Shown here: positions 13,847 to 63,523 of the stretch, one piece after another
Layout: each line of letters opens with the position of its first letter
How positions within the stretch are numbered: position 1 is the first letter of the stretch
Assembly (NCBI GenBank): GCA_030248195.1
Contig: JASAND010005316.1
Coordinates: forward strand, 1-64,000
Source of the DNA: Trissonchulus latispiculum
Taxonomy: Eukaryota; Nematoda; Enoplea; Enoplida; Ironidae
Direction: 5' to 3'
DNA: 64,000 nucleotides
The notes under the pieces: generated by a model
Told to the model about the DNA's origin: nothing
The model's input: the letters and a program-made list of their open reading frames with translations, nothing else
Databases searched by the model: none
Position numbers and translations under genes: made by a program

Positions 13847-17006
<3,160 letters not shown>

Positions 17007-17084
17007 ACCGCGGGCGCAAAGGTGCAATGTCGACTTACTGGTGCTGACACCAGAAGGAACGAACATCTAAGACAAACGACATAC

Positions 17085-17315
17085 CTTTTACTGATTGTGC
17101 AGACGTACAGCGGAAGCTGGCTACTTTATTATCCCACTCTGAATCAGGACCAAGATGGTAGGTGGAAAAGGTAAGGAATTGGATGAGCACATTCTCAGGG
17201 AATAGTAGTATGCTGTTAGAAAGAAAATTCTTTACTACTTCGAAGTTGGTGATGTCAATGCTAGCAGAACCATCCACGATTAGAATCAAATTTGTTTTTT
17301 CGGTTTTGCACTGAT
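17085..17315 (-). CDS. Host exon: start of a von Willebrand factor A domain
   Basis: On the minus strand a TTATTTCAG acceptor precedes codons reading QCKTEKTNLILIVDGSASI. DGSAS is the DxSxS metal-ion-dependent adhesion site of vWA domains, preceded by the hydrophobic first beta strand. The next residues (FEVVKNFLSNSILLF, then NVLIQFLTFS) fit helix 1 and strand 2. A donor AAAAG|GTATGT follows at 17084. The 231-bp exon is then phase 1 to phase 1. It joins in phase to the exon at 32927-33083, which ends another vWA domain. vWA proteins with several domains are usually extracellular adhesion or matrix proteins; which one this is cannot be said. The 3' donor is my choice, and the open frame itself runs to 17035. 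Confidence 0.75.
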
Positions 17316-36921: not shown

Positions 36922-37689
36922 CTATTACTTTATCGGAAACACCTCCGGAAACCTATTATAGATCATATCCAGGGTATCATAATTCATAAATGACCCGAAG
37001 ATTACAAATCATCTCCAATGGAAGCTGCCTTGCCGCGGTGGAGATGCTTACAGCCTCTGGCTTACCAAATGGTTTCCCCTTTCGGGCTGCCCCTGGTTTG
37101 GGAGGCCGCATATCCTCCTTGGACCCCTACGGCGGGACAGCCAATCTGCTACCCCCCTCCAGCCGTGTTTTTCTCAGCCGGCGAGGCAAACCAGCCTACC
37201 TCGCCCGGCTGCTGCTGATGGGTGGAGACCATACGTGTGCTTGGGGGGGGTTGGTGGGTTTCCACCCCCCCAGACCTGAGCTCACCCCCCCAGAGGGGTC
37301 CCTCACCCCCCCCCCCCAGAATCCGGATTTTTCCGGTATAAAACCTGAAAAATCCGGGTTTTCGGCGGCCTTCGGCCGCCCTTCACCCCCCCCCAGAACT
37401 TCCCTTCCTGCACATGTCTGGTGGAGACGTTTAACCAAACCCCGGTCCACTATGGCCTTGCGCAGTCCGCGGTTTCAGACGGGGACTGCTTCAGCGGACT
37501 CTAGACGATTTTCGGTGCAATCGCTGAACCAGACCTGATTACTCCCAGGCTCCTACTCCCCTCCTACCACCTACCTCAGTGATACATACCCCAGCCCCGC
37601 GTGCAGTAAGGCCTGGCCCGAACTCCACCATGTCATCCAACACTACAGGCTCCGCCAGTCGTCGTGGGGAAAACGCTCACCGGCCCCGC

Positions 37690-38540
37690 AGCGAGCTCAG
37701 ATTCTTGCAGTGGAACGCGAGAGCTCTCTCTTCCGCCAAAAGGCTTTTCCTCCGGAAAATCCTGGAGGAAGAACAGATCGATGTTGCCGCTATTCAGGAA
37801 ACCTGGTTAACAGAAGGAGACCATTTGCGACTCCCAGACTTCAACGAAGAGCACTGATACAGGAAACGGGACTGGCGACTGACTACCCAAAAGCCCGTCG
37901 GGGGCGGTACCGCCCTGCTCGTGCGGAAGGGCATCGACTATCTGCGTTGCGACACTCCACTGACTGCGACTTCGGACGACTCCACTGACGGCGCTGCGGT
38001 GCGACTTCAAGTAAACGGGAACCTTATACCAGTCACCTCCGTGTACCTACCTCAGGTCGTCCGCACGATCATCATCCGCGGACGACCAGCGCTCCCAGTC
38101 CTTCGACCCTGGACCCCTCCCCAACACCAGCAGCACTATCCTTTTGGACGACTTCAATGCCCATAGTATACTCTGGGATCCATTCCAACCGGCCAACAGC
38201 ATAGGCGAGGATCTGGAGGACTGGATCACTGCGAACAATTTGGTGGTCGTCAACTCTGGAATCACAACTAAAGCTACAGCCCAGTCGGTGCCAGACCTGA
38301 CGGTTCTGGGGAACAGATTGGATGGAAAGTTTGTATGGTCATTGCTCGAAGATACAGTCTCCGACCATATACCCATCTGCATACGCCTGAACTACGTCAC
38401 CAGCCACAGAAATCAGAAGAACTACAACTGCGCTACAACTTCAGAAAAGCTGACTGGGCTAAATTCCGGAAATTTCTGGACGACCAGCTGTCCCTTCGCC
38501 TACCGCCTGAAGAAGAACAAACTGCACACAACCTGATGTC
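37690..38540 (+). pseudogene. LINE endonuclease (APE-type), frameshifted
   Basis: The apurinic-like endonuclease would nick target DNA to prime reverse transcription. In order, across changing frames, are LRFLQWNARAL (the Asn box), IQETWLTEGD (catalytic Glu), VTSVYLPQ, DDFNAHSILWDPF (D-x-N) and VSDHIPICIRL (the final catalytic Asp-His). All catalytic boxes are present, but at least three frame changes separate them (near 37857, 38060-38140 and 38340-38400), so it cannot give one protein. Confidence 0.8.
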
Positions 38541-39017
38541 CGCCATCTCAGCATCCTTCCAAGTAGCCGCGATGGCTGCAATTCCGAAAAACCGCCGGAA
38601 GGACGCCAACGCATTCTGGTGCCCTGAACTCAGTGACCAGGCAAGGCTGTGCAGGAACCTGCAAAAGCAGACAAACACGATGAACAGGCGAAACGGCAAT
38701 GGACTGTTGAGAACCGGAAGCTGCGGGAGATGATCGTTGCTGCCAAACGCGAGGAGCGGAGGAATTTTGCATCCGGACTGAGCCTACGGTCAGATCCGGC
38801 CAAGGTAATGAGGACGATTCAAAGTATTGACGGAAAATGCTCCAATGACTCCAGTGGTGCCATCATCAAATCCGGAAGGCATCTGCTCACGGATGCCGCA
38901 AAAGCATAAGCTTTTGCTACGGATTATGCCGCAGGCAGCCGGACGAACCCGCGCCGGGATGCAGTTATCATTAAGAGAAGAAACAGATCACTGCTGAAGA
39001 ACCCGTGTCCCTGCGGC

Positions 39018-40208
39018 ATGCCGGAACAAAGCATCTGCAGCCCCTTCTCACCTTCGGAGCTGGAATCAGCCATCTCGTGCCTTAGAACTAAGAAGGCGCC
39101 GGGCATGGATAACGAAGTCACAAATGAAATGATCAGGAACTCAACGCCGCTATACAGGAAATCCCTCCTCAGGCTATTCAACCGTTCCTGGACCCACAGC
39201 GAAATCCCAGCCTCCTGGAAAAAGGCAATCGTGGTTCCCATTCTCAAAAAGGGGAAACAGGCTGAGTTGATCAGTTCATATCGCCTGATCAGCCTGACCC
39301 CTACTATATCCAAACTCATGGAGTCGATGATCAAACGGCGTCTCCAATATTTCCTCGAATCGAGGAACTTCTTCACTCCAGCGCAAGCTGGATTCAAGAT
39401 CGGAGCCTGCACTGAAGACCAGGTGCTCAGGCTCTCACAATCAGGCGTCGACGGATTTTCCAACCAGAGGAAGGCCAAACGAACTGCATTAGCTCTCATC
39501 GACTTTTCTCGTGCCTTCGACACCGTGTGGAAAGACGGGCTCATTAATAAACTAATTAGATCTGGCCTGCCTACTTGCACTGTCAAATGGATTCATCAGT
39601 TTCTGGTGGAGCGGAGGGCATGTGTGAAAATTGGAAGAAACCGCAGCAGTTTCCGGGATATGCATCAAGGGGTCCCTCAGGGTAGCGGCCTGTCACCCCT
39701 CCTCTTCATCATCTACATCAACGATATACTGGACAGAATGCATGAGGGAGTGCCCGCCTCACTATTTGCGGACGACCTAGCCCTCTGGACACAAGATGAA
39801 GAGGAACTGCTCCAGTCAGCCCTGAATGTCTTCCACAGATGGTCCACGACGTGGCATATGCAGGTCAATGTGGCAAAATTCGAAACGATTGCCTTCACAC
39901 ACACTGCAGAAGCCAAACGCCGTCTCAGCCTCGATTTCAACGGAGAACCGATCCCTTGTCGGGACACTGTCACCTTTCTCTGTGCCACCTTTGACCGCCT
40001 CCCCAACTTCGGACCGCATGTCACAAACCTCAAAGCAAAGCTGACCTCTCGGATGCGCGTGCTGTCGTCCCTGTCTGAGAAGGACTGGGGGGGGGGACTG
40101 ACCAAAGAGGATCTCAGGACCGTCTACGCCACTTTCGTCCGATCTGCTCTTGAATACTGTGTGGGGCCTCAATGCAACCTCCACCCACACCTTGCACGGC
40201 AGAAATGA
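39018..40208 (+). pseudogene. LINE reverse transcriptase, open for 396 codons
   Basis: This long open frame carries a full non-LTR reverse transcriptase: KAPGMDNEVTNEMI, SYRLISLTPTISKLMES, motif A ALIDFSRAFDTVW, motif B QGVPQGSGLSPLLFIIYIND, and the catalytic SLFADDLALW. A thumb region follows, with HVTNLKAKL and ALEYCVGPQ. The active-site residues appear intact. The frame ends at 40208 (LARQK then stop). RNase H lies downstream in another frame, so the original long ORF is broken here. The open length suggests a fairly recent insertion compared with the neighbouring wrecks. Confidence 0.9.
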
Positions 40209-40491
40209 TACAGAACAGGGCGTGTCGACTGATCACTGGTTGCCACAGTGCGTCCCCTCTTGAAGCCCTGCAAATGGAAGCAGGGATAATGCCACTCAAA
40301 CTCCGGATACGGTTTCTGGCAGCGAAATCGTATGAAAAAAACCAGCGCCAGCCAGAAAACAGCCACCAGTTACGGACAATCCAACCGCCGGCCGGCCGCC
40401 AACGAACTCTCAAATCCCAGCCGAGCTGGCGATCCAGGGCGCCGGCAACCTCTGAACTCACCGCACTAAATAGACTCCCAAGAGAACATCT

Positions 40492-41308
40492 GTGCAGACT
40501 TCCTTCATGCCTCCCTGGCGACAATCAGCACATCTCGTTACCGATGACTCACTCCGGCTCACATGCCCTAAGGACGTGCCTCCAATGGAGAAGAAGAAAG
40601 CTGCACAGGAATACTTGACCAGGTTACCACCGGCAGACTATATCCTATGGACAGATGGACTATGGACAGAGACCAAAACCGTTCGCATCTGCACTGACTC
40701 TCTGTCTACGGTGCAGCGGTTTGCTTCTGGTCCTAGAACTATGTGCACGCGAACCGAATCTGACATCTGGGCCTCCCTCAACTGGTTGTCGTCATTTGGG
40801 ATCAACTTCTCTATAGTCTGGCTGCCCAGCCACTGTGGAATCTACGGTAATGAGCGAGCTGACCATCTAGCCCGCAACGGTGCCCAGATGCGGCAGGAAG
40901 CGGTTCCTGTCGACTACGACACAGCTGTGGCTGTTACCAGGATCTCGGAGTGGTATTCAGATCTTTCCCATACACGCTCCAAATCCATCTACTGGGATAA
41001 GGGCCCAGTTCCGGCTAAATCAGAAGGTGGTCTCCTGAAATTGGAACGAACTATGCTATCCCAAGTGCGATCTGGGAAGTGCCTGCTGCTGGCGCACTAC
41101 CGACACCAGGTCAATCCCACCCTCTACCCATCTCCCCTCTGCCCAGACTGTCTCCATGATGAGTAAACACTGGAACATCTTCTCATGGAGTGCCCTGCTA
41201 AAGATAATCCCAGGAGGCTCCACCTTGACTGCAGCAATGGATTGGCTGTCCTCTGGGAATCCCCAAGGGGAGTTGCGGACTTCCTAAGGGGTACCGAAAG
41301 TCTCTAGT
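40492..41308 (+). pseudogene. LINE RNase H and C-terminal zinc motif
   Basis: YILWTDG and RICTDSLSTVQRF are RNase H active-site blocks, followed by VWLPSHCGIYGNERADHLAR, the His-Asp end of the domain. Only a few residues separate the first two blocks, where a family member would have a longer stretch with the catalytic Glu, so an internal deletion is likely. A TAA at 41164 interrupts the end. The same frame continues beyond it with TLEHLLMECPA, completing a C-x2-C...H...C motif begun by LCPDC, and closes at 41308. Confidence 0.8.
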
Positions 41309-43554: not shown

Positions 43555-43965
43555 TTGAGCAATGGCATGAAAACCTTAACAATTCATCTCGCTGATGGCG
43601 ACTATGAACCCTCTCTATTCCTCAACATTCAAAGACCAGTCATCACTCAATCGATGGAAGAAATTCTTCAGGAACAGTACGGCTTGCAATTTTGGATCAG
43701 TCTGAAAATCACATTCCACAAGGACAAAAATGAACGCGAAACTATCAAAGCTCATTTCACCGGAAAATCCAGCCTAATTCTTCGGGAAAACGGTTACTGA
43801 TGATGACTTGACCACGGCATTTAGCGAAATTCTGCTGCATTTTGGAAAAATTTCTCAAAAAATAATCCGGCGGGTTATTAGTTAGTTTGACCCTCTAGAC
43901 GTTCATTTTGCTAGATACCAACCAATTGCTGGATCCTCATTCATTCATTTTAGAATTTATTGAAC
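43555..43965 (+). pseudogene. Fragment of Polinton DNA polymerase N-terminal region
   Basis: The frame 43555-43800 contains QFWISLKITFHKDK, and the following frame after 43890 contains DVHFARYQPIAGSSFI. The latter corresponds to DIHLAKYRPLFGSTY in the Polinton polymerase at 50900-52015 of this window. The fragment therefore comes from a second, different Polinton, in plus orientation, and is broken by stops. The catalytic part is absent. The open frame at 43908-44156 that follows is not recognised. Confidence 0.55.
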
Positions 43966-44544
43966 CTCAAATTTTTAATGGCAGCAACGTTTCCTTATTA
44001 TGTGTTGCTCGCAATCATTACGTACCAACTACGTTAGTATATCACAATACTCGTCAAAGTGTTATTGATAAATTTGAATATTCTCTTTCTGATTTGAATT
44101 TAGAACCAATAACAAGTGAACAACTGGGATTAATTGAAATAATTTTAAAAGCTTAAAAGTAGACTTAAGAGTATATCTTAAAAAGATATAAAAGTAGTAT
44201 ACTAACGATAATGAAATGACAATGTTTCAAGTTTAAGCAAATTAATTCCGAAACAAGGAATGTTAGTCAATCCAAGATGAATGCGAAGCCCGCTTCTAAG
44301 AAAAAAGTACAAACTAAAAAGTATAAAAGTAAGGAAAATAATACGAAGAAAACTAAAGTCTGACCAAAAAATGTAGGGAGCGAAATTGATTTGTTTATAC
44401 TGAATTACCGGTACATTTTTGCTGCAGCAATGTATATATTTTCTGAACCGTCATGGCATGAACTTAGTTTTGGTTGAAAAAAATTTTTTTTAGATTAAAA
44501 TTCATCAAAAGAAGCCGATTTTTTAAGTTTTGAAGGATCAGTAG

Positions 44545-45495: not shown

Positions 45496-46384
45496 GATTG
45501 GGAAATTTGAACAATTTGGAGAAATGTCATAAACTGCAATATTTCATACGAGATTGTGCAAGTCAACAGTGTAGCATGAACGAAATTGAAAGTTTATTAT
45601 GTCCATACGAGTCGCAAAAATTTGAATGGAAGCTGTGCTTGGCTGACAATAGGCAGGTTATGAAGCAAATTCACGCTTAAACGGGATGACCTCCTTTGAA
45701 TTATGGATATGTGGCATTAAGAAAGTAACTCATGCGTGGTAGACATGACATGCCTCCGTTCTGGTTATGCACTTTCTATTAAAGTAAAGAAAATCTTAGT
45801 TTTCATTGCATTTTAAAAATGTATTCCTGGGAATTAGTGACGATTTATGGACAACCGGTTGGACTCAGCAACAAATGTTCCAATCAATTCATCAAAAAAT
45901 GATTCATTTTCATCATTCATTTTTTGAATCATTCATTTAAAAAATCGGCTGCTTCCTTGAGCATATTAGACTGGTTGCTCAAAACACCTTTTGTGACAAA
46001 GTAAACCACGGACGCATTATTGCCTTTATTTCGTTCTGTACAGTGCTTGTTGATGTATATAATATTGAAATTAAAATTGTAATTTATTGGTGATCTATGT
46101 GTATCTATGCATATTTACAAATAAAATTAAAAACAAAAGAGAGAGGTAAACCGATCAAATGACATTAATGTTTTTATACTTTATTAGATATTTATAATCT
46201 CCATGACATAGCATCCCAACGCAACGCATTTTTATATAAAATCTAAATTATGAAATTAAATTTTTTAATTCCTTTAAATATTTGTAATATTTAGATAATT
46301 TGCTTTCGAAGGACACCCCAAACTATACGATTTTATAAAAAAATCTAAATTATCAATTTAAATTTGTAACATTAGAAAATTTTT
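45496..46384. other. No gene seen
   Basis: AT-rich loop sequence of the giant inverted repeat. TTCATTTTTTGAATCATTCAT repeats lie near 45890-45945. Confidence 0.5.
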
Positions 46385-49115: not shown

Positions 49116-52015
49116 TTAATTCACAGTGTAATTTAATTCAATCAATACATGACCATACGCAAATGAATGGATACCATCTTCAAGTATATAACGTTGGTCA
49201 TCATATGCGCTTAATCCTATCTTACACCACTGTACTGTAGTCAGTTGATGACGTCTCCTATCTATACTGCTCATGATGTGCCCAGTTCTACCCCCATGCA
49301 TCAATATTCGCTTATAGTCTTCATGCCTCAGTCTATCTGACCTATTAAGTCCTTTTGCCGCTGTAATATCATCAAATTCGCACTTTTTGCTGTACATCTT
49401 TACTCTTAATACTACAAATTCACTAATTGGCTTACCCTTAACTTCATCCTTCATCTTGCCTAGCACCTTCTTGTTAACGCTGCTATAAAGTGGGTGGTCC
49501 TCAGGGTAGTTACTGGTGTCAAATAGGTCAATGACCTCTCTCATATCCTGGTAAATGTCAGGGGTTGTCACATGGTAGCAAAAGCTGTCCGTATCTGTGT
49601 ACAGTAAGCTAACCCTATCTCCATACTTCTCCCTCATGTAGTTATAGTGAAAGTTGTACATGAGGTATTTTGATAGTTCAAGTACGGTGAATCCTACATA
49701 TACGCTTTTACATAGCTTAACTGTACGTTTCTGCACCTGCACTGCTACCAGGTCTTCTGAAAATGCCCCACATGCCTTGTACCTAGGGTTTGCAGCTAAC
49801 TTCTCAAACTTCTCTGGGCTGGTGACTAGTCTCACATCCAAGGTCTTCTTCAAACTTACTTTTCGCCTCTGCCCTCTTAACCATATTCAACTCTATGTAT
49901 GGCTTCATCCACGCCTCCTCATCAAAGGACACCTCTCTATGTATCTTCCTAAGCACTAACCCTTGATCTATGTATTGCACTAGGGTATGCTTGTGTATGA
50001 TGTAACGAGTCTTGTTGCGTAAATTAGGTACTAACTTCTGACACCGCATGTACCCTCCTTGCTCCTTACTGTACGGTGATATCATTTCTTCACCAATGGT
50101 AATTCTCTCAGGTGCCAGTGGGTAGTCATTGTGGGCGTTGTGTAGATGCAGTGGGTAGTCAAGGTCGACTTCAAGGATTCATGGAACGTCTTGCCGTCGC
50201 TCCAAGTTGGTCATACACCAAAAGTTGCGCACGGGGAGTTTCTGGACCATTGACCAACCATATAGATTGTTCATGTCCATGTATGTTATATAAGAGGTTG
50301 GCTGCTTAGGATCATACCTGTCTAACAGTGGGTTATTGGCCTTTGCGTTTTACGTACCGTTGGGCAACCACTGCCACCCCACCTCTAATTCCATCTTCAA
50401 AAAACAAAATACAGGCGTCCCAGGCAAATGAAGGTAGAGTACAATAGTGGCAAGGATCAAAGCCATATGTTTTCAGGCTAGTCAAGCGAAAGTTCTCTAC
50501 CACATCTGCCAGTAGTAGGACATCTGTTCTCAAGTATTCATCATGATACTGTCCCATATTTTCTATACCTAGCTCATGCCACACAGTCTTTGCATGCTCG
50601 TAGTCTCGGATACCAATGTCGCTATCTGTCAATGTGCTGTGGAAGGCATCAATGGGTGGTAACTGAGTCTCAATAAATCAATCCCACAAGTCCATGTACT
50701 CATAAGGGTAAACTCCCTTTCTTCTCATCAGTGACACTGGATGTAAATGTAAAGTCTTCATCAGTCAGTCCGTCTGCCAGTGTATCTAATGATCTATTCA
50801 GCAACTGGTAACTGTCGATGAACCTAATACACCACTCCTGTTCGACATTCAGTTCAAAACAAAGGTAGTCTTCTAATCCCTTTGGTACACAGGTGATGTC
50901 TAACTTAAACTCCTTACTGATCTCCCAACCTCTTGCATAATCCGGTGCCCATCGTATCGTCTCAGGTTATGGAACATTGTAGTCACTGTCCGACCCAGTT
51001 TATAGCCACAAATGTGACAATGGTCTCGGGTTGATTCCCCATTTGCAATCGTGCCATGATATAGGTGACATTCAGTGCAATGCTGAAGGAGTCGCTTGGG
51101 TAAACGTGGGTATTTCTTTAGTCGTTCCTGATACTGCTGACCTTTCAGTAGAATGGCTCTCAGGAATTGTTGCACTGCGTCCTCCGCACGATAAATCAAC
51201 GGTTCACCTCGGGCAACAGGCATTCCCTCACAACACTGGAGCACATCTACTAACCCAAATGCATATGGTCTGTGACTCTCATACATATTCGTATACGAGG
51301 AGAACGGGTTGGGTTGACAAGTATTTATCTTTTCTAGTAAACACTCAAAATCTGCGTAAATTACATCAAGTCGCATTAAACGCCTATGATCATTCTGAAA
51401 TTTTAGTTTAGTGGACGATGGCATTACTGTTATCTGTAAATCTAATGTAAACTCTAATTCATATTCATAGAATTCATATTGTTGATACTTGACCACTCTA
51501 TTCGCATAATCTTTCATCGGATGGAGGCCTGCCAGGATACTCCACATGAAGCATTTATTGTCAGTATTCTTCGTTTTGATGATTGCCTTCTTTGCTGTGA
51601 GACTCTTCGGCAAAGGTGCGTATGTTGATCCAAATAGTGGGCGATATTTAGCCAGGTGAATATCCAGGTATTGCACATGATCGATCAGCCATCCTGATCT
51701 ATTGCGTTGGGATTCTTCGATGTTCGTGAGGATGCGGTTGATCATGGAGTTCATAGGCACATTTTCACCAGGAATAATGTTGGTCTGTTTTCTGGCAAAA
51801 TAGCTGCTCATCGTTTCGTTGGTAATCTCGTTGATGACTAGAATGTGCAGCCTCAATTGCATCTTCAAAGCTCGATCACCAATAAGGTTTTGAATAGCTT
51901 TGGTGCAGTCCAATAGGAACTCTTTAGGATCATTGGTTGACTCATCTGGTGTTATACGGTACCAACGATCGTACCCACGCAAAGTCGCCGCTTGACGCTG
52001 CAAAGTCATTATCAA
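49116..52015 (-). pseudogene. Polinton DNA polymerase B (protein-primed type)
   Basis: The N-terminal frame (50900-52015) has the exonuclease box VIYADFECLL, a Cys-His cluster (HCTECHLYHG...DHCHICG) and the damaged NLRRYDGHRIM box. 50333-50632 has YLRTDVLLLADV (third exonuclease box) and LPSFAWDACI, after which a stretch is missing before DGIRGGV. Palm motif A (YMDMNNLYG) follows a one-base shift near 50342, and an in-frame TGA lies near 50180. 49116-49853 has the palm motif C LLYTDTDSF. Motif B is absent: the frame jumps from KSKFEEDL straight to TLDVRLVTS at about 49850. At least three frameshifts, two deletions and a stop mean it cannot function. It would replicate the element using a terminal protein. 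Confidence 0.9.
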
Positions 52016-52268
52016 TACTGAATAACTGTACTGAATAACATGTGTGATACCCTACTTATTACCACAAAAAATTTGAATTCATTATTTAGCAAATCACGAA
52101 GCAACAAACAACAAACTACATTTACCGGTAATCATGAAGTTAGCTGTACATCTGTTTGAAAAAAGTTGACATTTCAAAATTGTGATATTACAAAAGGCTG
52201 CTTTTATAAATTTACGTTTTGCATAAAGTTACACGAAATATACAAGACATTACAATAGGCAAATATAT

Positions 52269-53103: not shown

Positions 53104-53376
53104 AGTGCGTAGTCAAAGAATTGCGTCCGATTATAGTCTATTGATATTAGGTTATCAAATTCGCCGTATATAATTGGACTGAGTTAGAGGTAGCAAGAAG
53201 AGATCCATTTCGGACTTGAAGCCCAGCAGAGACCATTCATCTACTTGCTTAGCCATTGAAGTTACAGTTAGTATATTACTATAATTACATATGGTGGGTT
53301 TTTATGGGCTGTAAATGTCACGCTTCAGTCTCTTAATTTTGCGCATATGTGGTCATTGGCCTATGCCTTCTCCTTG

Positions 53377-53682
53377 CTATATTGCCTTGCCTCTGTTCTC
53401 CAGCAGGCGTCCAATGGCTGCCTTACCATGTCGTTTGGGTGATTCCTTAGGATATTCACATCGTCGAGTAATCGCGAGCCACACCTCCTGCCGTCTGAAA
53501 GTGCTGCCTGCCTCTAGACCGACAAGACGTCCTGCTGGCCAAATAAAACGTCCAATTCCTCTCAAGAGGCTACGCAAGCCATCTCCTCTCTGATACCTTT
53601 GGCCGGCGTAAAAACCAGACCCTCTCCGTATCAGGTGGAATTGCCAGTCTTCAAATGTTTTAGGATGATACCTTGTCCTCAT
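53377..53682 (-). CDS. Small pX/pVI-like Polinton ORF
   Basis: 101 codons, starting MRTRYHPKTFEDWQFHL and followed by GSGFYAGQRYQRGDGLRSLL, a Gly-rich basic amphipathic segment. Small basic or membrane-active ORFs of this look lie next to the capsid genes in Polintons and recall the small adenovirus core/lytic proteins; that comparison is by look and position only. The frame overlaps the end of the upstream structural ORF by 23 bp. The C-terminal half (ITRRCEYPKES...) may be out of the original frame. Confidence 0.45.
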   Translation of the reverse strand: MRTRYHPKTFEDWQFHLIRRGSGFYAGQRYQRGDGLRSLLRGIGRFIWPAGRLVGLEAGSTFRRQEVWLAITRRCEYPKESPKRHGKAAIGRLLENRGKAI

Positions 53683-54450
53683 CTTTCTTAAAGTGTAACT
53701 TGATAACTATACTACCATATTCAAACTGTACACTCCTGCCAATGTGATTGTTTATATGGACTTTAATGCTATTGACCACGTGTTTATTCACAGGGACGTA
53801 GCGAGGTTGAGGAAAGTACTGAATGGTGTCCCCAGATTCTTCACCCGCCTTTACTACTGTCAGCAGGTTACCGCTAGTTGTGCCTATAAGTTGTTCTTTC
53901 ACGATGTCACAATGGACTTGAAGGTAGTGAAAGTTAAGACTTGGTGGACGTTGTGCGTAAAACTTCTTTATCCTCAGGGCATCTCTTCCACTGGCTGGTT
54001 CTACAGTAAATTTCTGAGAGTCAAAGCCAAGTATGCGTACGATGGTAGGAGCAAATTGGACAAACTCAAAGTTGGGTCTTTCAAGGTGTTCTGGATTCTC
54101 GTATAGGTCCAGGTAGACTCGATCCTTTTCCTGATCATAGACGAAACTTATAGGAGGTGATTCCTGACGTTCATTAAGAATTGACTGCATGGTAACGTTG
54201 ATGGCGTTTAGCAGGTCATGGAGGCTATAGTATCTCCGCCTGGGTATATTACCAACTGCTCCCTCGTTTAATTAATTTTAGTTTCCCAGAATTAATGCCC
54301 TTCCAAGTGTGAGGATAGATAAAGTCAACCATTGCAACAGACCACCTGCCATGTAGATGCAAAGGGTGAGCTAGCTGGTTTTCAAAGGTGCCTTCCTTTC
54401 CGGTGAGATATAGGTAGAAACTCATCTTCGCTTCCGGCCGGAAGTGTAAC
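53660..54450 (-). pseudogene. Polinton structural-type protein, copy 2
   Basis: It begins near 54450 (MSFYLYLTGKEG, then LHLHGRWSVAMVDFIYPHTW), is interrupted near 54245, and resumes at 54190 in a 176-codon frame ending with FEYGSIVIKLHF. The upstream neighbour has the same landmarks in the same order (FYLYLPSN, LEGEWKVALVELEYPVTW, FKYGKVFAKLHF), so the two are tandem homologues. The family is uncharacterised to me; position suggests a virion protein such as a minor capsid protein. It has a single region of frame disruption. Confidence 0.6.
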
Positions 54451-55230
54451 TTTGCAAAGACCTTTCCGTACTTAAAGCTTACCGCCTTACCATGATCATC
54501 CTTTGTATGTATTTCAATACTATCAGATTCTTTTCTTAGCACAGGTATATAGTGTGGGTTATTGTATATTCGATCAATAATATCGTTATGCTTACCGTCG
54601 ATACTGACAACACGAATGATTGGCTCGATGGCATTTCCTATCATTTGCGGTGCTACCACGTCACAGTACATGTAGAGGAGTAGAGTCCACCCCTCAGGTC
54701 AGGTGCAGTAGGGGCCACTGCGTATCTGCGTGGTGAGACTGTCTTTCCTTTGGTACGACCTTAGTATCTGAATATCCGAGCATATACTTTCGATGTTTAC
54801 TGAAGTGTAACGCCTTAAAGTCCGGTTCTTCGTCTAGGGTAGTTGGTTTAAGTCCGACACGTCTATGAAGTTCATCATAGGCCAGTTCACAGTAGATCTT
54901 CTTTGTTAGTTCAAGGGTATAGTTGATGGCATCACATAGTCGAAATATTGACTCATAGTTATCCAGTGGGATGTGCCCGTGGTATGTCTTCTTGCCAACT
55001 GTCACTCCAAGCTTTGCGTCATCCTTGTTTCCTACGTTGAACCAGGTGACAGGATATTCGAGCTCTACAAGTGCCACTTTCCATTCACCCTCGAGGTCAA
55101 CACGGTGGAGAAGCCTGACTTGGAAATTGGGTAGTTTGTTCGTTGCATAGTCTTCTGTATTGCTGGGTAGGTACAGGTAAAATCTATTGTCTTCAGTTAT
55201 CCAACTATTGAACTTGTCCGGGTATCCAAG
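54430..55230 (-). pseudogene. Polinton structural-type protein, copy 1
   Basis: 55077-54694 (MALVELEYPVTWFNVGNK...) and 54671-54249 (MYCDVVAPQMIGN...FAKLHFRP) are parts of one protein split by a short disrupted stretch at 54675-54720. The true N-terminus lies upstream of 55077, where the same strand gives FYLYLPSN and LEGEWKVAL. At that point the sequence runs on directly from the chromodomain of the integrase with no start codon between, suggesting a deletion that joined the two genes. Confidence 0.6.
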
Positions 55231-56230
55231 CCACTTGACAAAATACTCTTTTGACCCTTACGCCGCCTGGTTTTTATTACCTTTTCCAGGCAATTAGTGT
55301 CTGGTTCGTCAACCTGTCGTATTTCTGGTTGGTAGAAACCACCAATCACCTCTTCGCCACCATAGTCTTACAGGAGGTACATAGGTGGGTCACCTGTAAT
55401 GACATTTCTGATACAGAATAACTCTTCTGACCACTTAGGGAGGAAGAATTTGTCAAAGAGACCCTTTGTTTTGCTAATACGGACCATATTTCCCTTCTTT
55501 AATACTGGCTGGGATGTTTTTTCTCCACGGGATGCACGTCTACCATATAGTGCCCTGTTAACCAGTTCCATATTTTCAGGCCTCGATGCCTCTACTGGCG
55601 TCATACGGATGTTCCTGTGGCGAGCATTGTTGTAGGCTTTCACGAGTTGAGGAAGGTCGTCAATATACCTATGCGATATGGTCTTTGTAAAGTATTTTCA
55701 TATCTTTGTCTTAATAGTACGATTAAAACGCTCAACGAAGCTACACTTGATCACTGGACTATTGCATGTATAAAAGTTGATGTGATTGGCTTTTAGGAGT
55801 GATTGGAAATCTTTATTTAAAAATTCTTTGCCTCTGTCTGACTGTAGGTGGTGTGGTCTACTGCCATCTGCCAGTATTTTACGAAAAGCTCTAGTCATAT
55901 CTTGACCACCCTTGCTTTTAACTGGGATCACCCATGCGCACTTGGAGAAGGCGTCAATACAGTTGAACAGGTACTTGTAGCCATCATTCTTGTCTGCTAT
56001 CAATACCATATCTGCCAGGTCTGTTTGCCATAGGTCGTCAATACCTACCACCCGATACCTCGCCGTTGGGAATCTGTGTCTAACTGGTTTATGGATGCTG
56101 TAAGTGTACTGTTTTTCCAGCCAATTAGTGACTTCGGACCTCGAGATTCCGTATCTTTTCGCCTCCTGATACACGCGATTAACACCGCCAAATGCTGCAG
56201 GACTTTGCGGGTCATAGTAAATCTTCTTAA
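55200..56230 (-). pseudogene. Polinton integrase with chromodomain
   Basis: The catalytic core shows DLWQTDLADM (first Asp), LQSDRGKEFLN (second Asp) and CSFVERFNRTIK (Glu, about 35 residues later), the D,D,E triad of retroviral-type integrases. A TGA stands after RTIKTKI at about 55696, and the same frame continues past it into 55643-55368. A C-terminal chromodomain follows (EYFVKWLGYPDKFNSWI, near 55230-55280) after a shift. N-terminal codons upstream of about 56230 belong to the inserted TTAA element, so the natural start is lost or displaced. It would insert the element; the chromodomain would steer it to chromatin. Confidence 0.85.
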
Positions 56231-57463
56231 GGGGGGGTCCACCATGAAAAATTTTATGGTCACGGATTTTGCTCATTTTCCCACAAAACTTTGTCACATA
56301 TGTCCTGCATATCGAGTTTCAATTTCGAGTAGTTTCGTTCAGTACTTAACGAGTAACCGGCTATTAATTGCATGCAATTTGAAAACAGGTGAAAACGGCG
56401 GTGCCGCAGCAAATAAAGGCACTTTACACCTGAACTTCCTTGAGAATGGAGCTATATTCGGTTGTATGTTTGATATCTGATGCAAACAAAAAACTTAGGG
56501 TAGCTTTTACTGGGAAAACGTTTCTTTATGACTTTATTTAGTGATTTTAGGAAGTAGCACCGACACTGGAAAGCCTTGACCTCGAAGAAAATCATTTAAC
56601 GGCCGATAACTTGAATTTGGTGCATTTGCGGGCAATGGTCCAAGAAGTAATGTTCCCGACAATGAGTGCCTTCGATTGATATAAAATTTAACGTATTTCG
56701 AAAAATTTGAAAAATCGCTATTTTTGAGATTATGGTTGTCAGACCCCCATATTTGGCCCCAGCGACCAACTGGGTGCACTAACCTGCGCCATTTGTGCCC
56801 AATCTTGACCTAAAGTCATCAATAATCGTGCGCAAATAGGTAGTCTAATATTTTATAGGTCTGTGTTGCCATAGCTCTAGGTTATCTGCCAAAAAACGGG
56901 AACTTCCTACAATTTGCTAAAAATTGAGATTTCTGCGCCAGAGAATTCTCGAAACCGGACAGAGGAAAGCAGGATCAATTGGTATCGTTCGAAATGTCTT
57001 GTCATGAGCTGTGATTTGTAGGAAGTAGAATTTTTAATTAGGGCTTACAGCTTTCAGAATATTTCATCAAACTTGCTGACCCCCAATTTTAACATTGCAA
57101 AACAGTCAAATTTGGCTGTTCGCAAACTTAAAAAATTAATTAAAAATTTTTAAAGGCCTAAATTAAAATTCTGCTTCCTACAAATCACCCTTCGAGATCG
57201 TTTATATGATACAGAATGGACGTTGAAGTGCTCCATCTTGTCGTTGGCAGGATTTCTCTGGCGCACGGAAAAAATCACCACTTTTTCCGTTTCCTATGTT
57301 TAACACATACTGACATCAACTTTGAGGTGAAATTACTTGCTAACCGTAAGAGATCCGACCTTCATTTCAAAAACTCGTTAAAATATACCAATCGGACAAC
57401 AAAATGTGTGAAAATGAGTAAAATCGGAGATGGTCGAAAAATCGGCCAAAAATGGACCCCCCC
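56231..57463. mobile_element. TTAA-flanked element inside the Polinton
   Basis: 1233 bp with termini GGGGGGGTCCA and the perfect inverse, flanked by TTAA at 56227-56230 and 57464-57467. This is piggyBac- or Kolobok-like target choice. It contains no transposase. It separates the integrase from the upstream Polinton genes. Confidence 0.85.
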
Positions 57464-57499: not shown

Positions 57500-58030
57500 T
57501 ATTATGAATAGTATCAGCATTATTCTCTAGTGCCGCTTCCTTTTGAGATTTTTTAGGGCTGATCTTATTCCTTGACCTGTCTGTATATTTATGTACCGTG
57601 GGTTTCCGATAAGTTCTCGAGGTACGTTGAAGTCCCTTAATGCCTTAACCAATGTTTGCCACGCTATAGCCGGTGGTTGACTGGGTCTGGTACGAATGAA
57701 GTCGTGAATCAGATCACATATTTTGGTCCAACTGCTGGCTGACCCTGATACTCTATTTCACCTCGACTGTTAACCTGAGACCTGGTATACTCACGATATG
57801 TTCAATCAGATGCCTACCCTTCTGCTGTAGTGTTGGTGGTAAGGTAGATACAATGTCTGGCATAGCGGGGACTTGAGGGCCATCTCCGTTGGTTTATTTC
57901 GTAGTATTCGACACCTATAGTCTGCCTGTTTAAACACACTCTTAATATCTGCTGGTAGTTTGGACTTGAGAACATTGCTAGCTTCCTTCTCCAGTGATCT
58001 AGAGTGCTCATCAAAGTAGTCTGGCTTAAC
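57500..58030 (-). pseudogene. Uncharacterised Polinton ORF (ends VPRELIGN)
   Basis: The minus strand between the ATPase and the TTAA insertion gives, over two or three frames, SLEKEASNVLKSKLPADIKS, then GEIEYQG, then ALRDFNVPRELIGNPRYIN and a Lys/Arg-rich end (LKNLKRKR). The conserved look and position argue for a real former gene of about 170 residues. The function is unknown to me. Confidence 0.5.
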
Positions 58031-58104
58031 TACTATTGATTATTCCATTGTTACTTGCCTTCCAGTGTCAGTTTTTTATCATCTTGAGATTTCCGAGGAG
58101 TCCA

Positions 58105-58830
58105 CCGACAATAGTCGCAGTGTATCGATATCTTTTTCAAAACGATCCATGATTATTCTTCCTTATATTGTCAGTTTTTATGGAATATACGTCGGCATAA
58201 GGATCATCAGGGAAAATATGCCCTCGAAGGCGGAGTGTTTCTGGTGTGTTCTGGTCTAGGTCTATCAGTAGATATCCGTGCGGTCGACTAGTGCTCAAAA
58301 GCCTCCATAGACGCTTTCACCCTACCTGGATACATTTTCCTTGCCAAGTTCATCGGGGTTAGCTTATCGGCAGGAATTTTCATGAGGACAATGCACTGAC
58401 TAGTTATCTTATTAGTCCGCTGCCTGTCGTAGAAGATGTCTTGAGTGATATTGATGACACTACAGGACCAATGGTGACAAGTGAAAAGTGAAGTTGTACA
58501 AAAAGGAGTGAAAAGTTGTACAAGATTTGGTTGCTGCTTGATTTCACTCATTAGATCATCAAGGACTACCAATTTTGCGACTGGGGCTTTTAGTTTCTTT
58601 AGATTCGGTAGACCTTTGACAAATTTCACCTGAGGTAGATTATCATATGCATCTTGCCACTCAGTATAACACCAAATAATCTTATCCGGATGCTCTGACA
58701 TCATTTCATTTGCATGCTCTACCAGTCGAGACACAAATGTGGTCTTTTCTGCCTTTGTTGGAGCCGCCACGATACATGTGAACGGATGCTGAAATCTTGG
58801 TGTCCTAACCTTCTCCATCCTTACTCGGAA
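58105..58830 (-). pseudogene. Polinton packaging ATPase (FtsK/HerA type)
   Basis: FTCIVAAPTKAEKTTFVSRL is the Walker A region and KLVVLDDLMSE the Walker B. NITQDIFYDRQRTNKITSQ follows, as in the viral genome-packaging ATPase family, and PETLRLRGHIFPDDPY near 58200 is the C-terminal block in another frame. The P-loop has lost both diagnostic glycines (A-P-T-K-A-E-K-T in place of GxxxxGKT), so ATP binding would fail. A local duplication of FT-like codons near 58480-58510 and a shift near 58270 add to the damage. In a live element it would pump DNA into the capsid. Confidence 0.8.
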
Positions 58831-58980
58831 AACACAAACGCTGTTTATATGACTTTGTACAACAGTGCACCGATCATCGAGTAACAAGTATATATATAAT
58901 TCATTATAGTGTCATATTTTCTTGACTCCTATGTTTTCTTTCTTCACTGTTGAATCATCATAACGTATCATGGTCATTCT

Positions 58981-59196
58981 TTATTTCGTAGTATCCATCA
59001 CATCTTCATCGTCGAGGCTAAATTCTTCCATTACTTCCTCTTCATCAAATAGTTGCTTCATATCGACATGTAGAATTCGCGGCCATCCAATGCCAGGAAT
59101 AGATATGATTATATTTTGCCTCGAATATCGTCTGCATTTGTTCTTGTGATAGCGGCTGAGGCGGATCAGGCTCTGGAGTGCCTTATAGATACCCAT
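58981..59196 (-). CDS. Small acidic-tailed ORF, unknown
   Basis: 71 codons: a basic N-terminal half (RLSRYHKNKCRRYSRQN) and an acidic C-terminus (EEEVMEEFSLDDEDVMD). It lies between the membrane protein and the ATPase on the same strand. It is intact but short, and I do not recognise it. Confidence 0.4.
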   Translation of the reverse strand: MGIYKALQSLIRLSRYHKNKCRRYSRQNIIISIPGIGWPRILHVDMKQLFDEEEVMEEFSLDDEDVMDTTK

Positions 59197-59247
59197 GGTG
59201 CAAATATCAGATGGATACTATGGTATTTACATCAGTATTGTAGGCCT

Positions 59248-59719
59248 ACTTATTGACTATAGAGTTGGTATATTTGATCTGCTGTAAAACTGACAGGGCC
59301 AACAAAGCCACAAAAGACACGCTTATCTTGATCTAGGCAAAAAGTTGTCTCGTTGTATGTGAACGTGTATGGACACGGTAGTGATCCTCGATATAGAATG
59401 GGCAGTGGAAGTTTAGACAATTGTATATAAATTGTCGGATCTCATGAAAACTATTAAGTAATACAAGGTGCTCAGTCCAACCATTGTGAGTAAAGATGGC
59501 ATTGTCTACCGTGACGGAGTCCTTCAGTGGTGGTAGTTTACACTGTTCATGCTGTGACAACAAAATCGCTAATACAATCGTAGACAATAAAAATTTTATG
59601 AGAAGGCTTGTGATTATACAGGGAACTCTTTTGACCAATTGGAGTTTCGTATAGTTTAATGAGGAATGCCCTTCTCGGGAATTTGCACCAGTAGCCATAG
59701 TCAGGGTCTTGTACGGCAC
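59248..59719 (-). pseudogene. Single-pass membrane glycoprotein-like ORF
   Basis: Frame 59333-59719 has a clear membrane segment (CIITSLLIKFLLSTIVLAIL) near residue 35, then an ectodomain-like region with paired Cys (CLNFHC). After a one-base shift near 59380 the minus strand continues with PCPYTFTYNETT, CLDQDKRVFCGF and a stop near 59248, adding Cys and an N-glycosylation site. The layout suggests a type II membrane protein. It lies at the end of the minus-strand cluster, back to back with the TBP-like gene. The family is unknown. Confidence 0.5.
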
Positions 59720-59868
59720 ACTTTAACAATAATTCTATGCGCTTCTTATTACCATAGAACTTTGATGCTGTCTTTGTATTAGCCCTACTACCATGCTTTT
59801 TATAGACGTGAGGGGGTACCTTAGTGTTCCAAATTAATAAGGAGACAGAGGATACCAAGGGGGTAACA

Positions 59869-60319
59869 ATGATTGTTGATGTTCTTCTCAGTGGATGCTT
59901 TGACAGGGAACTTCACTTAACGAACATTCCCAACAATAGACTCTATCGTGGATTTATTGGCGGTAGACTGAAGCACGGGGAAGGGACTTTCCAATTATTC
60001 ACCAGCGGTAGTTTTGTTTGCCTCGGATATTTGCCTAGCTAATCAGTGTATTCGTCAACTAGCTGGCGCTCTTAATGTCGGTATTCTTCGCGAAGGCAAA
60101 GTGGTGAACCTGGTGGGATCCTTCTCAGTTGGCAGGTATATGGACCTAAGGGATTTATATGAAAGTATCAGACATACCCATCAAGTTTGCTATGAACCAG
60201 AGCTTTTTAATGGTCTCATCTGCAAGATTGCCAAAGTCACTGCACTCATTTTCCACACTGGCCAGGTCATATTGACTGGCGCTCGGAGTGAGTCTGCCCT
60301 ATCAGATGCAAGGTCTTAG
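59869..60319 (+). pseudogene. TATA-binding-protein-like gene in the Polinton
   Basis: ATG at 59869 starts a frame (MIVDVLLSGC...) ending with LFTSGSFVCLG, which corresponds to the end of the first TBP repeat (strand, Ser-Gly, VCTG). A frame change at about 60030 leads into the second frame, with KVVNLVGSFSV, then CYEPELFNGLICKI and ALIFHTGQVILTGA. YEPELFxGLI and the LIF-x-G-x-VxLTGA strand are hallmarks of the second TBP repeat. TBP binds TATA boxes to nucleate transcription. The copy is very divergent overall, so it is not a recent host retrocopy. It is on the opposite strand to the Polinton core genes, a few bases from the divergent minus frame. One frameshift is visible. Confidence 0.8.
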
Positions 60320-60368
60320 TTAATAAGAAGATGATAAGGTTTGCAGTTAAACTTTAGCCTGGTGGATC

Positions 60369-60791
60369 TTGTCTGACCGAAGCCTGTCGAACGAACTGTT
60401 ACAAAAGGCCCTGCGACAAAGCCCGCCTATTCGCGTAGAGATTACGGGTCATTATGCTGCAGTCATGGTTATAGGTAGTGAGACTTGGACGAGCTCACAA
60501 TGCCCTGACCCACGTACTGCCATTGAGGAAGTTTCTCGTAAAGCCTACGGCACGTTATGTCACGGCGGCGAACATCTGATCAGACGTGAATGCGGATTAC
60601 CACCAAGATCTCATATCTACGAAATTGATGCAGTCAGGGATAAGATGAGGGACCTACGTGAATATAATAGATATCGCAGAAGTATTCAACCTATCTACAA
60701 TATGCTAGACAGGCTAGAACCAGAAATGCTTAAAAATCCGTTTTTCGTGGTTGACTGCCTACCTTATACTTTATACCAACAGTGCATCTAA
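60369..60791 (+). CDS. 140-codon ORF beside the TBP-like gene, unknown
   Basis: An unbroken frame just 3' of the TBP-like gene on the same strand. It opens SLSNELLQKALRQSPPIRV, then ITGHYAAVMVIGSETW and AIEEVSRKAYGTL, then a charged helical stretch (DKMRDLREYNRYRRS). The middle part loosely recalls the second half of a double-stranded-RNA-binding domain (strand, strand, AxxxAxxxAL helix), but I would not assign it. No ATG is present at the start of the frame; the first in-frame ATG is near residue 33, so the true start may lie upstream across a break. Confidence 0.4.
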   Translation: MSDRSLSNELLQKALRQSPPIRVEITGHYAAVMVIGSETWTSSQCPDPRTAIEEVSRKAYGTLCHGGEHLIRRECGLPPRSHIYEIDAVRDKMRDLREYNRYRRSIQPIYNMLDRLEPEMLKNPFFVVDCLPYTLYQQCI

Positions 60792-62700: not shown

Positions 62701-63042
62701 GGCCACCCCCCGTCCACCCCCCCCCCCCCATTGCCCAGACGTGGATACAGTGATTATGCAATACTACACTGTTATTCAATAATAATGGTTAACAGTGTTA
62801 TGCAATATGCAATAATGATAATAATAGAAATAATAATAGTCAATGGTGTTAATATGCAATTGTTAGTGGTCTTTGCATTCCTGGTGATTCCATTGGGATA
62901 CAAACCATTCCGGCACATTCCATTGTTTCACCATAGAATTTCCAATCCATTCGATGAATACGACGGCCCGGTTGTCGCATCCCAAGGGTCCAAGGGCCAC
63001 CGTTGCGTCCGGTCTCGCTGCTTGTACCGTAGGGAAGGTGTC
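62701..63042. other. 3' flank of CARD gene
   Basis: A second minus-strand frame (62849-63088) stays open across the CARD gene stop and is not obviously random (LGHLPYGTSSETGRNGG), so an alternative ending is possible. AT-rich sequence with ATA/AAT runs lies at 62810-62845. Confidence 0.35.
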
Positions 63043-63523
63043 CTAGCTTTCTCTTAGCAAATATTTGCTCTTTGTGTAAATCTTCCACGTGACTCCTTTC
63101 TCCTTCGTTCCTCCTTCGAATAGTTTGGCTAGGTTGTACTGCTTCGATTGGACCAAGGCCTCGTGAAGCACTATATCTTTACTCCGCTTTAGTCGCAGTA
63201 GGAGATCAAACACTCCATCGTATCTTGTTTCGGAGTTGATGATATCTCGATAATCCGGGGTTATGCGCCGATGTTCAACCATGTAGTCTGCCACTGGAGC
63301 GGGATCCATTTCATCACAAAGAATAACCAAATTGTCTATGATTTTCTCCACAGATGGTGAACCTGAAACATTTCAGCATCAAATAATGCTAGAAGATAAA
63401 ATGATTAAAATATATAATAGCTAGAATATATTAGTTAAAATGTAATGATTAAAAATACAACGGATAAAAACACAACTTTTAAAATGTTAGAATTAAAATC
63501 TTACCGGTTTCAACGGAATTCAT
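63043..63523 (-). CDS. Two-exon CARD (death-fold) protein
   Basis: Exon 1 (63505-63523) codes MNSVET plus the first base of a Gly codon and ends at the donor CCG|GTAAGA. Exon 2 (63362-63043) follows the acceptor ATGTTTCAG and completes Gly, then SPSVEKIIDNLV. The body is a CARD: DEMDPAPVADYMVEHRRIT, then a stretch ending TRYDGVFDLLLRLKRS, then EALVQSKQYNLAKLF, matching the six-helix pattern with the VADY-x-VEH and LL-L segments typical of caspase-recruitment domains. A basic tail (KEKGVTWKIYTKSKYLL) ends the protein at about 113 residues. The phases agree and no break is seen. CARDs assemble apoptosis or innate immune complexes in the cytoplasm. It is a CARD-only protein unless further exons follow. 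Confidence 0.75.

Follow-up and report, generated by a model that had tools for sequence, protein, structure and literature searches.

A TATA-binding protein gene carried by several Polinton lineages in the genome of the nematode Trissonchulus latispiculum

Does a Polinton carry a TATA-binding protein (TBP) gene of its own, and what would such a small element do with it? TBP is near-universal in archaea and eukaryotes and occurs in large DNA viruses that also carry a polymerase, and many eukaryotic DNA viruses have been proposed to descend from Polintons. An integrating virus-like element of small size that has a TBP and no recognised polymerase would amount to a natural experiment separating promoter recognition from the polymerase. 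The DNA analysed here is a stretch of 64,000 nucleotides (the window), in which a sequence-only reading had placed two TBP-like half repeats at 59869-60319, on the strand opposite the ATPase end of a Polinton, and had proposed that the element encoded its own promoter-recognition factor.

The placement of the half repeats proved right. Both TBP halves lie at 59869-60316 of the forward strand, in two reading frames; the first half begins with an ATG at 59869, and the second runs to 60316, directly before a TAG at 60317-60319. In a Pfam search, the C-terminal half matched PF00352 with E=1.2e-17 and 64 bits, where the cut-off is 22.9, and it also matched 35 distinct PDB sequences at E<=0.001 (best E=2.9e-17), of which 34 are named TBP, TFIID or TBP fusion and one is the ECU04_1440 protein. 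The HMM search of both frames that the sequence-only reading had called for thus gave a match above the cut-off for the C-terminal half, while the N-terminal half by itself, at 12.1-12.8 bits to PF00352, fell under it. Despite this low score, the N-terminal half is regarded as real, since it shares, over 59851-60027, 88% identity with the corresponding part of an open TBP copy at another locus (L037). As the two halves stand in different frames and are followed by a stop at 60317, the window copy is broken. None of 39 candidates from a protein database matched the window TBP piece.

The opposing strands were likewise borne out, with TBP on the forward strand and the adjoining ATPase, integrase and PolB pieces on the reverse strand (Table 1). 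The reverse-strand block extends from approximately 49.1 to 58.9 kb and comprises PolB pieces, an mCP-like ORF, two PY-type ORFs, the integrase, ORF X and the packaging ATPase. The only Polinton DNA found beyond this genome was on two contigs of Escarpia laminata (L013 and L014; QGON01000010.1 and QGON01000029.1; 3.8 and 11.8 kb). They were deposited within a MAG of a bacterial endosymbiont of this tubeworm and are probably host contamination. The labels PX, X, PY, mCP and MCP are presumed from Polinton gene order, together with blast matches to contig L014. Capsid and adenain-type protease labels were assigned by blast to author-labelled Escarpia ORFs; the MCP had no Pfam match and the Escarpia protease fell just below the cut-off. 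The label of a protein-primed PolB was likewise obtained by blast to an author-labelled Escarpia ORF, and the PolB of locus L048 scored 21.9 bits to PF03175 (E=9.7e-05), below the cut-off of 25.8. An rve integrase with a chromodomain was found by Pfam both in the window and at locus L035. For the window ATPase, 112 of 135 protein-database candidates were homologues, many of them with a precomputed PF04665 or PF02456 assignment; the A-type ATPase ORFs themselves, the window's included, had no Pfam match to either family, and the ATPase of locus L046 matched PF04665 (FtsK/HerA-type, A32/IVa2) at E=4.5e-10. ORF130, which follows TBP, had no Pfam or PHROG match as the window ORF, no Pfam match as the corresponding ORF of L030, and no match among 67 protein-database candidates at E<=1.

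Table 1. Features of the Polinton copy in the window (mCP, PX, X and PY labels presumed as described in the text).
Feature	Position	Strand	Evidence
PolB pieces, several frames	49119..52051	-	Escarpia PolB tblastn matches at 49584-50719; pieces match ORFs in L045, L047, L049, L052, L054
mCP-like ORF	53305..53706	-	76% to L039 ORF, which matches Escarpia ORF
Two PY-type ORFs (minor capsid/penton by position)	53684..55182	-	84-89% and 32-43% to L037 PY
Integrase (rve) with chromodomain end	55159..56231	-	PF00665 E=4.5e-14, PF00385 E=5e-06; 79-83% to L037
Polinton ORF X	57530..58057	-	63% to L037; L035/L037 ORF matches Escarpia ORF
Polinton packaging ATPase, two frames	58155..58854	-	77-89% to L037 ATPase
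A135, small conserved family A ORF	58984..59211	-	84% to L037
157-aa ORF, divergent from TBP, two frames	59253..59722	-	84-89% to L037; hydrophobic stretch by eye
TTAATAAG box	59834..59841	+	AATAAG from 59836, 33 nt before TBP ATG; same box at -36 in L037
N-terminal TBP half repeat	59869..60027	+	First frame, from ATG; 88% to L037 TBP
C-terminal TBP half repeat	60032..60316	+	Next frame; PF00352 E=1.2e-17; 79% to L037 over 59978-60316
ORF130, follows TBP in family A	60366..60746	+	89% to L037 ORF
Outer-end family A ORF, one stop in frame	62866..63369	-	92% to L037 ORF; death-fold-like by eye

The window and L037, a relative on another contig, are collinear at 89% nucleotide identity over 58108-60764, which spans the ATPase, TBP and ORF130, and further collinear blocks were found at 54312-56238, 57521-58113 and 62858-63371. 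Between these blocks L037 has gaps of 9 and 271 bases, whereas those of the window reach approximately 1.3 and 2.1 kb and look like insertions in the window copy; near PX, approximately 0.26 kb of L037 is absent from the window. Seven family A copies on other contigs share the TBP block with the window in collinear order, at 84-89% nucleotide identity. Comparing the stretches 42.0-49.3 kb and 58.9-64.0 kb in search of the long terminal inverted repeats expected of a Polinton gave nothing significant (best E=0.38). The window holds a decayed copy of a Polinton/Maverick, other copies of the same lineage having kept an intact TBP gene. Elsewhere in the window, reverse-transcriptase-type retroelement frames were seen by eye at 36990-41166, and a long GT dinucleotide repeat at 16258-17174 leaves several frames open.

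A first look for PF00352 in the assembly (733.8 Mb, 21,732 contigs) produced 1271 candidates. The 150 of these that were scored all exceeded the Pfam cut-off, and the best two were exons of the host TBP, an intron-bearing gene on one contig. After merging, at least 138 non-host TBP loci, the window included, were present among the matches listed. DNA was read at 30 others, and all 30 lay among Polinton genes, in a non-random sample of 20 stretches of 9.0-9.9 kb picked for variety and 18 short loci that were the best-scoring matches, eight of them at shared places. Naming of the neighbouring genes was partly circular, as the reference proteins came from Escarpia, the window and a few of the same loci; the Pfam integrase, the Pfam ATPase in family C and the Escarpia matches are more independent anchors. 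As a control, 14 window pieces of 3.2 kb outside the element were compared, and the single piece with any match resembles a second Polinton remnant. A second, C-type Polinton has probably left remnants in the window at 43950-44153 and 45504-45662, with 65% identity in PY and a 34% match to the 157-aa ORF.

Proximity to the ATPase gave a second measure of context. A listed Polinton ATPase lay within 5 kb of 57 of the 138 listed TBP loci, where chance would give 0.28 pairs. Among 100 listed ATPase matches of at least 70% identity (the window's included), 54 had a listed TBP within 5 kb, at 1.4-1.9 kb in all but one case, and 46 had none; the lists hold 150 of 1271 TBP candidates and 150 of 1126 ATPase candidates, so that a miss does not equal an absence. 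Neither DNA reading nor ATPase distance placed 63 of the 138 listed loci in a Polinton context. A further ATPase lineage in the genome comprises 50 listed matches of 56-67% identity, mostly stop-free, two of which have a listed TBP within 5 kb. With the TBP list limited to 150 scored candidates, these counts fit either universal or partial carriage of TBP among these Polintons. The 30 read loci and the 57 with a nearby ATPase bear out the presence of a TBP in Polintons: in this genome the gene recurs in several Polinton lineages and moves with them.

At least four TBP-carrying lineages were distinguished. In family A, the window type, TBP and ORF130 stand on the strand opposite the main block, at the block's outer end. 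Families B and B2 share the order integrase, TBP, PY, MCP, ATPase, and family C has PolB, integrase, ATPase, PX, X, NADAR, TBP, PY, MCP. Family D, represented by locus L048, has the integrase, TBP with PY, MCP and ATPase; here TBP and the penton-type PY share one open frame of 407 aa (L048:4804-6024), possibly a TBP-PY fusion. A full-length TBP copy of each type matched PF00352 (E=3.2e-30 for A, 1.9e-33 for B, 2.1e-37 for B2, 3.8e-37 for C and 5.4e-25 for D), all five with two PF00352 stretches and 87.5-127.2 bits, above the curated cut-off. TBP identity is 23-39% between lineages and 57% between B and B2. In the families aligned, the element TBPs are 26-33% identical to the host TBP, and they are 21-26% identical to human TBPL1; the two-repeat PF00352 fold is common to the element proteins, the host TBP and TBPL1/TRF2.

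The phylogenies were less uniform. The Polinton TBPs formed one clade with support of 96/83, which fell to 52/33 in a smaller set, and the alignment contains long branches. Monophyly of all Polinton TBPs is therefore not claimed, and they may have a single origin. The TBP tree groups A with C, whereas the ATPase and integrase trees set A apart (p-AU 0.075 for the held clade). The TBP-bearing lineages occupy two parts of the ATPase tree, separated by the Escarpia elements and by database proteins of unknown context; loss, exchange between elements or two gains could each account for this.

The element TBP is under purifying selection at the protein level. Fourteen pairs of open TBP copies gave dN/dS of 0.076-0.240, with dS above 2, and hence saturated, in two B-B2 pairs; the ATPase control gave 0.041-0.149 in the six computable of seven pairs. 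In family A, an antisense ORF overlapping the TBP 5' end may add constraint there.

The promoter-motif check suggested by the sequence-only reading returned TATA-like boxes upstream of many element genes, AATAAG in A and B and TATAAA in C. Seventy upstream regions, each of 150 nt, were taken from eight loci (A, three; C, two; B, B2 and D, one each) and are not independent. TATAAA occurred 23 times against 8.4 expected from dinucleotide shuffles. By lineage, AATAAG ranked at or near the top of the six-mer counts in A and B, and TATAAA was top in C. With one locus per lineage, AATAAG, a word chosen after inspection of the data, was present in 15 of 49 regions and TATAAA in 12 of 49; random starts gave means of 3.4 and 4.7, respectively, and in neither case did any of 300 sets reach the observed count. 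A permutation with free choice of the best word was weaker, at 6/500 for the pooled set and 18/500 for B, and was not significant for B2 (328/500), A (233/500), C (331/500) or D (198/500). The one locus of family D had no clear box.

Position is a further feature of these words. The AATAAG boxes of A and B lie mostly 36-54 nt before the ATG; at loci L042, L044 and L037, 13 of 15 fall at -55 to -30 (9 of 11 with B and B2 sites counted once), and at L035 none of three does. TATAAA is looser in C, with 2 of 8 in L046 and 4 of 5 in L052, and the C-type boxes are near the canonical TATAAAAG. Besides the box before TBP (Table 1), the window has kept others at 59750 (-), 59254 (-) and 60322 (+). Where AATAAG falls in overlapping ORFs, all three codon phases are represented, a pattern that favours a DNA signal. 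It could be part of the poly(A) signal of the preceding gene; however, the AATAAG before TBP in L037 has no listed same-strand gene ahead of it, which speaks against a poly(A) signal alone. In the Escarpia element, in which no TBP was found and which looks GC-rich, AATAAG was present in none and TATAAA in one of nine upstream regions. That many element genes carry a TATA-like box before the ATG, of AATAAG type in A and B and of TATAAA type in C, is partly shown.

The DNA-binding face was compared at positions which, in yeast numbering, we take to be the central asparagines (N69, N159), the intercalating phenylalanines (F99, F116, F190, F207), the minor-groove threonines (T124, T215) and the TFIIB contacts (E186, E188, L189). 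N69, N159, F116 and F207 are conserved in every TBP family. F99 is F or Y across families; F190 has become Y in B and L in D and is kept in the others. No family retains T124, where L, A or V stands instead, an exchange that weakens the claim that the element TBP reads TATA exactly as the host TBP does; T215 is kept except in D, which has S. Only family A has the full set of TFIIB contacts. With T124 lost, and TFIIB contacts lost outside A, the element TBP may recognise an altered box or work with altered partners.

Scanning of element ORFs turned up no RNA polymerase that we could recognise, and the host would therefore have to supply one. The role proposed by the sequence-only reading, recognition of the element's own promoters, is consistent with the kept DNA-contact residues, purifying selection and the boxes, and is inferred. 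The element TBP is probably an initiation factor that directs host RNA polymerase II to element promoters. It would bind AATAAG/TATAAA-type boxes before element genes, bend the DNA and recruit host TFIIB and RNA polymerase II; transcription of element genes would then be preferred, or would proceed when host TBP is limiting. A more specific version, which we put forward tentatively and think rather doubtful as a whole, is a private core-promoter code: each lineage would match its diverged TBP to a box of its own, AATAAG-type for A and B and TATAAAAG-type for C, in a favoured position ahead of its genes, host RNA polymerase II would be split between host and element initiation, and TBP and box would co-evolve. 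Small DNA viruses of the Polinton kind may, as the findings suggest, control part of their own gene switch-on, and the element TBP would offer a direct handle on Polinton transcription and on change of TBP specificity.

The same residues and boxes can be read against the host. An element TBP that sequesters TFIIB or TBP-associated factors, or obstructs promoters of the host, while the host TBP reads the boxes, would fit B, C and D, which retain much of the DNA-binding face and lose the TFIIB contacts as a competitor or dominant-negative factor might; the C-type boxes are also close to canonical, and host TBP could read them. We consider this unlikely, as it leaves the AATAAG boxes of A and B unexplained and family A has kept its TFIIB contact residues.

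Carriage of TBP as ordinary cargo, by some Polintons of one host and with no conserved role, would agree with the two places in the ATPase tree, with the many ATPase matches that lack a listed TBP, and with searches beyond this genome. No TBP was found on either Escarpia contig (best E=0.017, where 29 of the 31 same queries match the window TBP). In IMG/VR, a single-sequence TBP scan found relatives in none of 18 matched stretches, and TBP alignments found them in 12 of 34 and 1 of 65. None of the resulting 13 TBP loci matched any of 29 Polinton reference proteins at 1e-4, a test in which 17 of the 29 match the Escarpia contigs. Polinton ATPase was found in none of two IMG/VR stretches by single sequence and in none of 135 and 46 by alignment, so that this database yielded no Polinton with TBP, nor any Polinton; against prokaryote genomes the ATPase alignment gave 2 of 238 stretches, both of them the Escarpia contaminants. 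Set against this are the 23-39% identity between families and the low dN/dS, the marks of old, kept genes, and a cargo without a role is accordingly judged improbable.

A structural use of the DNA-bending saddle, in genome folding or virion assembly and not in transcription, would suit the adjacency of TBP and PY in B, C and D and their single frame in D. TBP has a different position in family A, though, and the position-biased boxes point to promoters, and to our mind this use is improbable. That a host TBP/TRF pseudogene sits beside a Polinton by chance, as the broken window copy might suggest, is refuted for this genome by the low identity to the host TBP, the at least 138 non-host loci, the Polinton context of all 30 read, the purifying selection and the presence of the host TBP elsewhere, with introns.

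Among known systems, the Escarpia Polintons share with the elements described here the rve-chromodomain integrase, the A32/IVa2-type ATPase, PolB, PX, X, PY and the capsid-type genes, and differ in that no TBP was found on their two contigs. Mirusviruses are also eukaryotic DNA viruses with TBP; passages of PMC10132985 give it as a core gene, present in 59% of mirusviruses against 0% of Nucleocytoviricota, and describe large genomes, own RNA polymerase subunits and HK97-type capsids, unlike the small integrase-bearing elements without a recognised polymerase here; neither an HK97 capsid nor a viral RNA polymerase was seen in those element ORFs that were scanned. The heliorhodopsin-containing mobile elements integrated in the alga Cymbomonas carry TBP genes sporadically and, in the passages of PMC10675990 at hand, are given a putative mirusvirus origin, unlike the present Polintons. 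The TBP of the giant virus Megavirus chilensis is expressed alongside viral transcription genes (passage of PMC11464507). It works beside a viral RNA polymerase, in a different class of virus. The IMG/VR contigs with TBP (L001-L012, L055) are viral and also have a TBP repeat, but none of their 13 loci matches the Polinton references at 1e-4. By eye, L001, L002, L010 and L055 are archaeal-virus-like with a two-repeat TBP, and L055 has perfect terminal inverted repeats of 99 nt.

No report of a Polinton TBP was found in a literature search in which subscription papers lay largely outside the coverage and which included passages of PMC10675990, PMC10132985, PMC11464507 and PMC12220804. The main text of four Polinton/Maverick papers (PMC3671162, PMC4642659, PMC8097293, PMC10120064) had no match to TATA, TBP or transcription factor. 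Priority is not proven; these results suggest that the gene content of invertebrate Polintons is under-described.

Two further domains were seen in these elements. A CARD protein is encoded in a B2 Polinton (L044:2521-3057; PF00619 E=3.7e-07), and the family A outer-end ORF resembles it by eye only; the CARD label was rejected for the latter, as neither the window piece nor the L037 ORF had a Pfam match and blast to the L044 ORF was at chance level (E=0.081). A NADAR-domain protein was found both in B2 (L044:9411-9899; PF08719 E=1.8e-30) and in C (L029:717-1262; E=7.6e-43), where it adjoins TBP.
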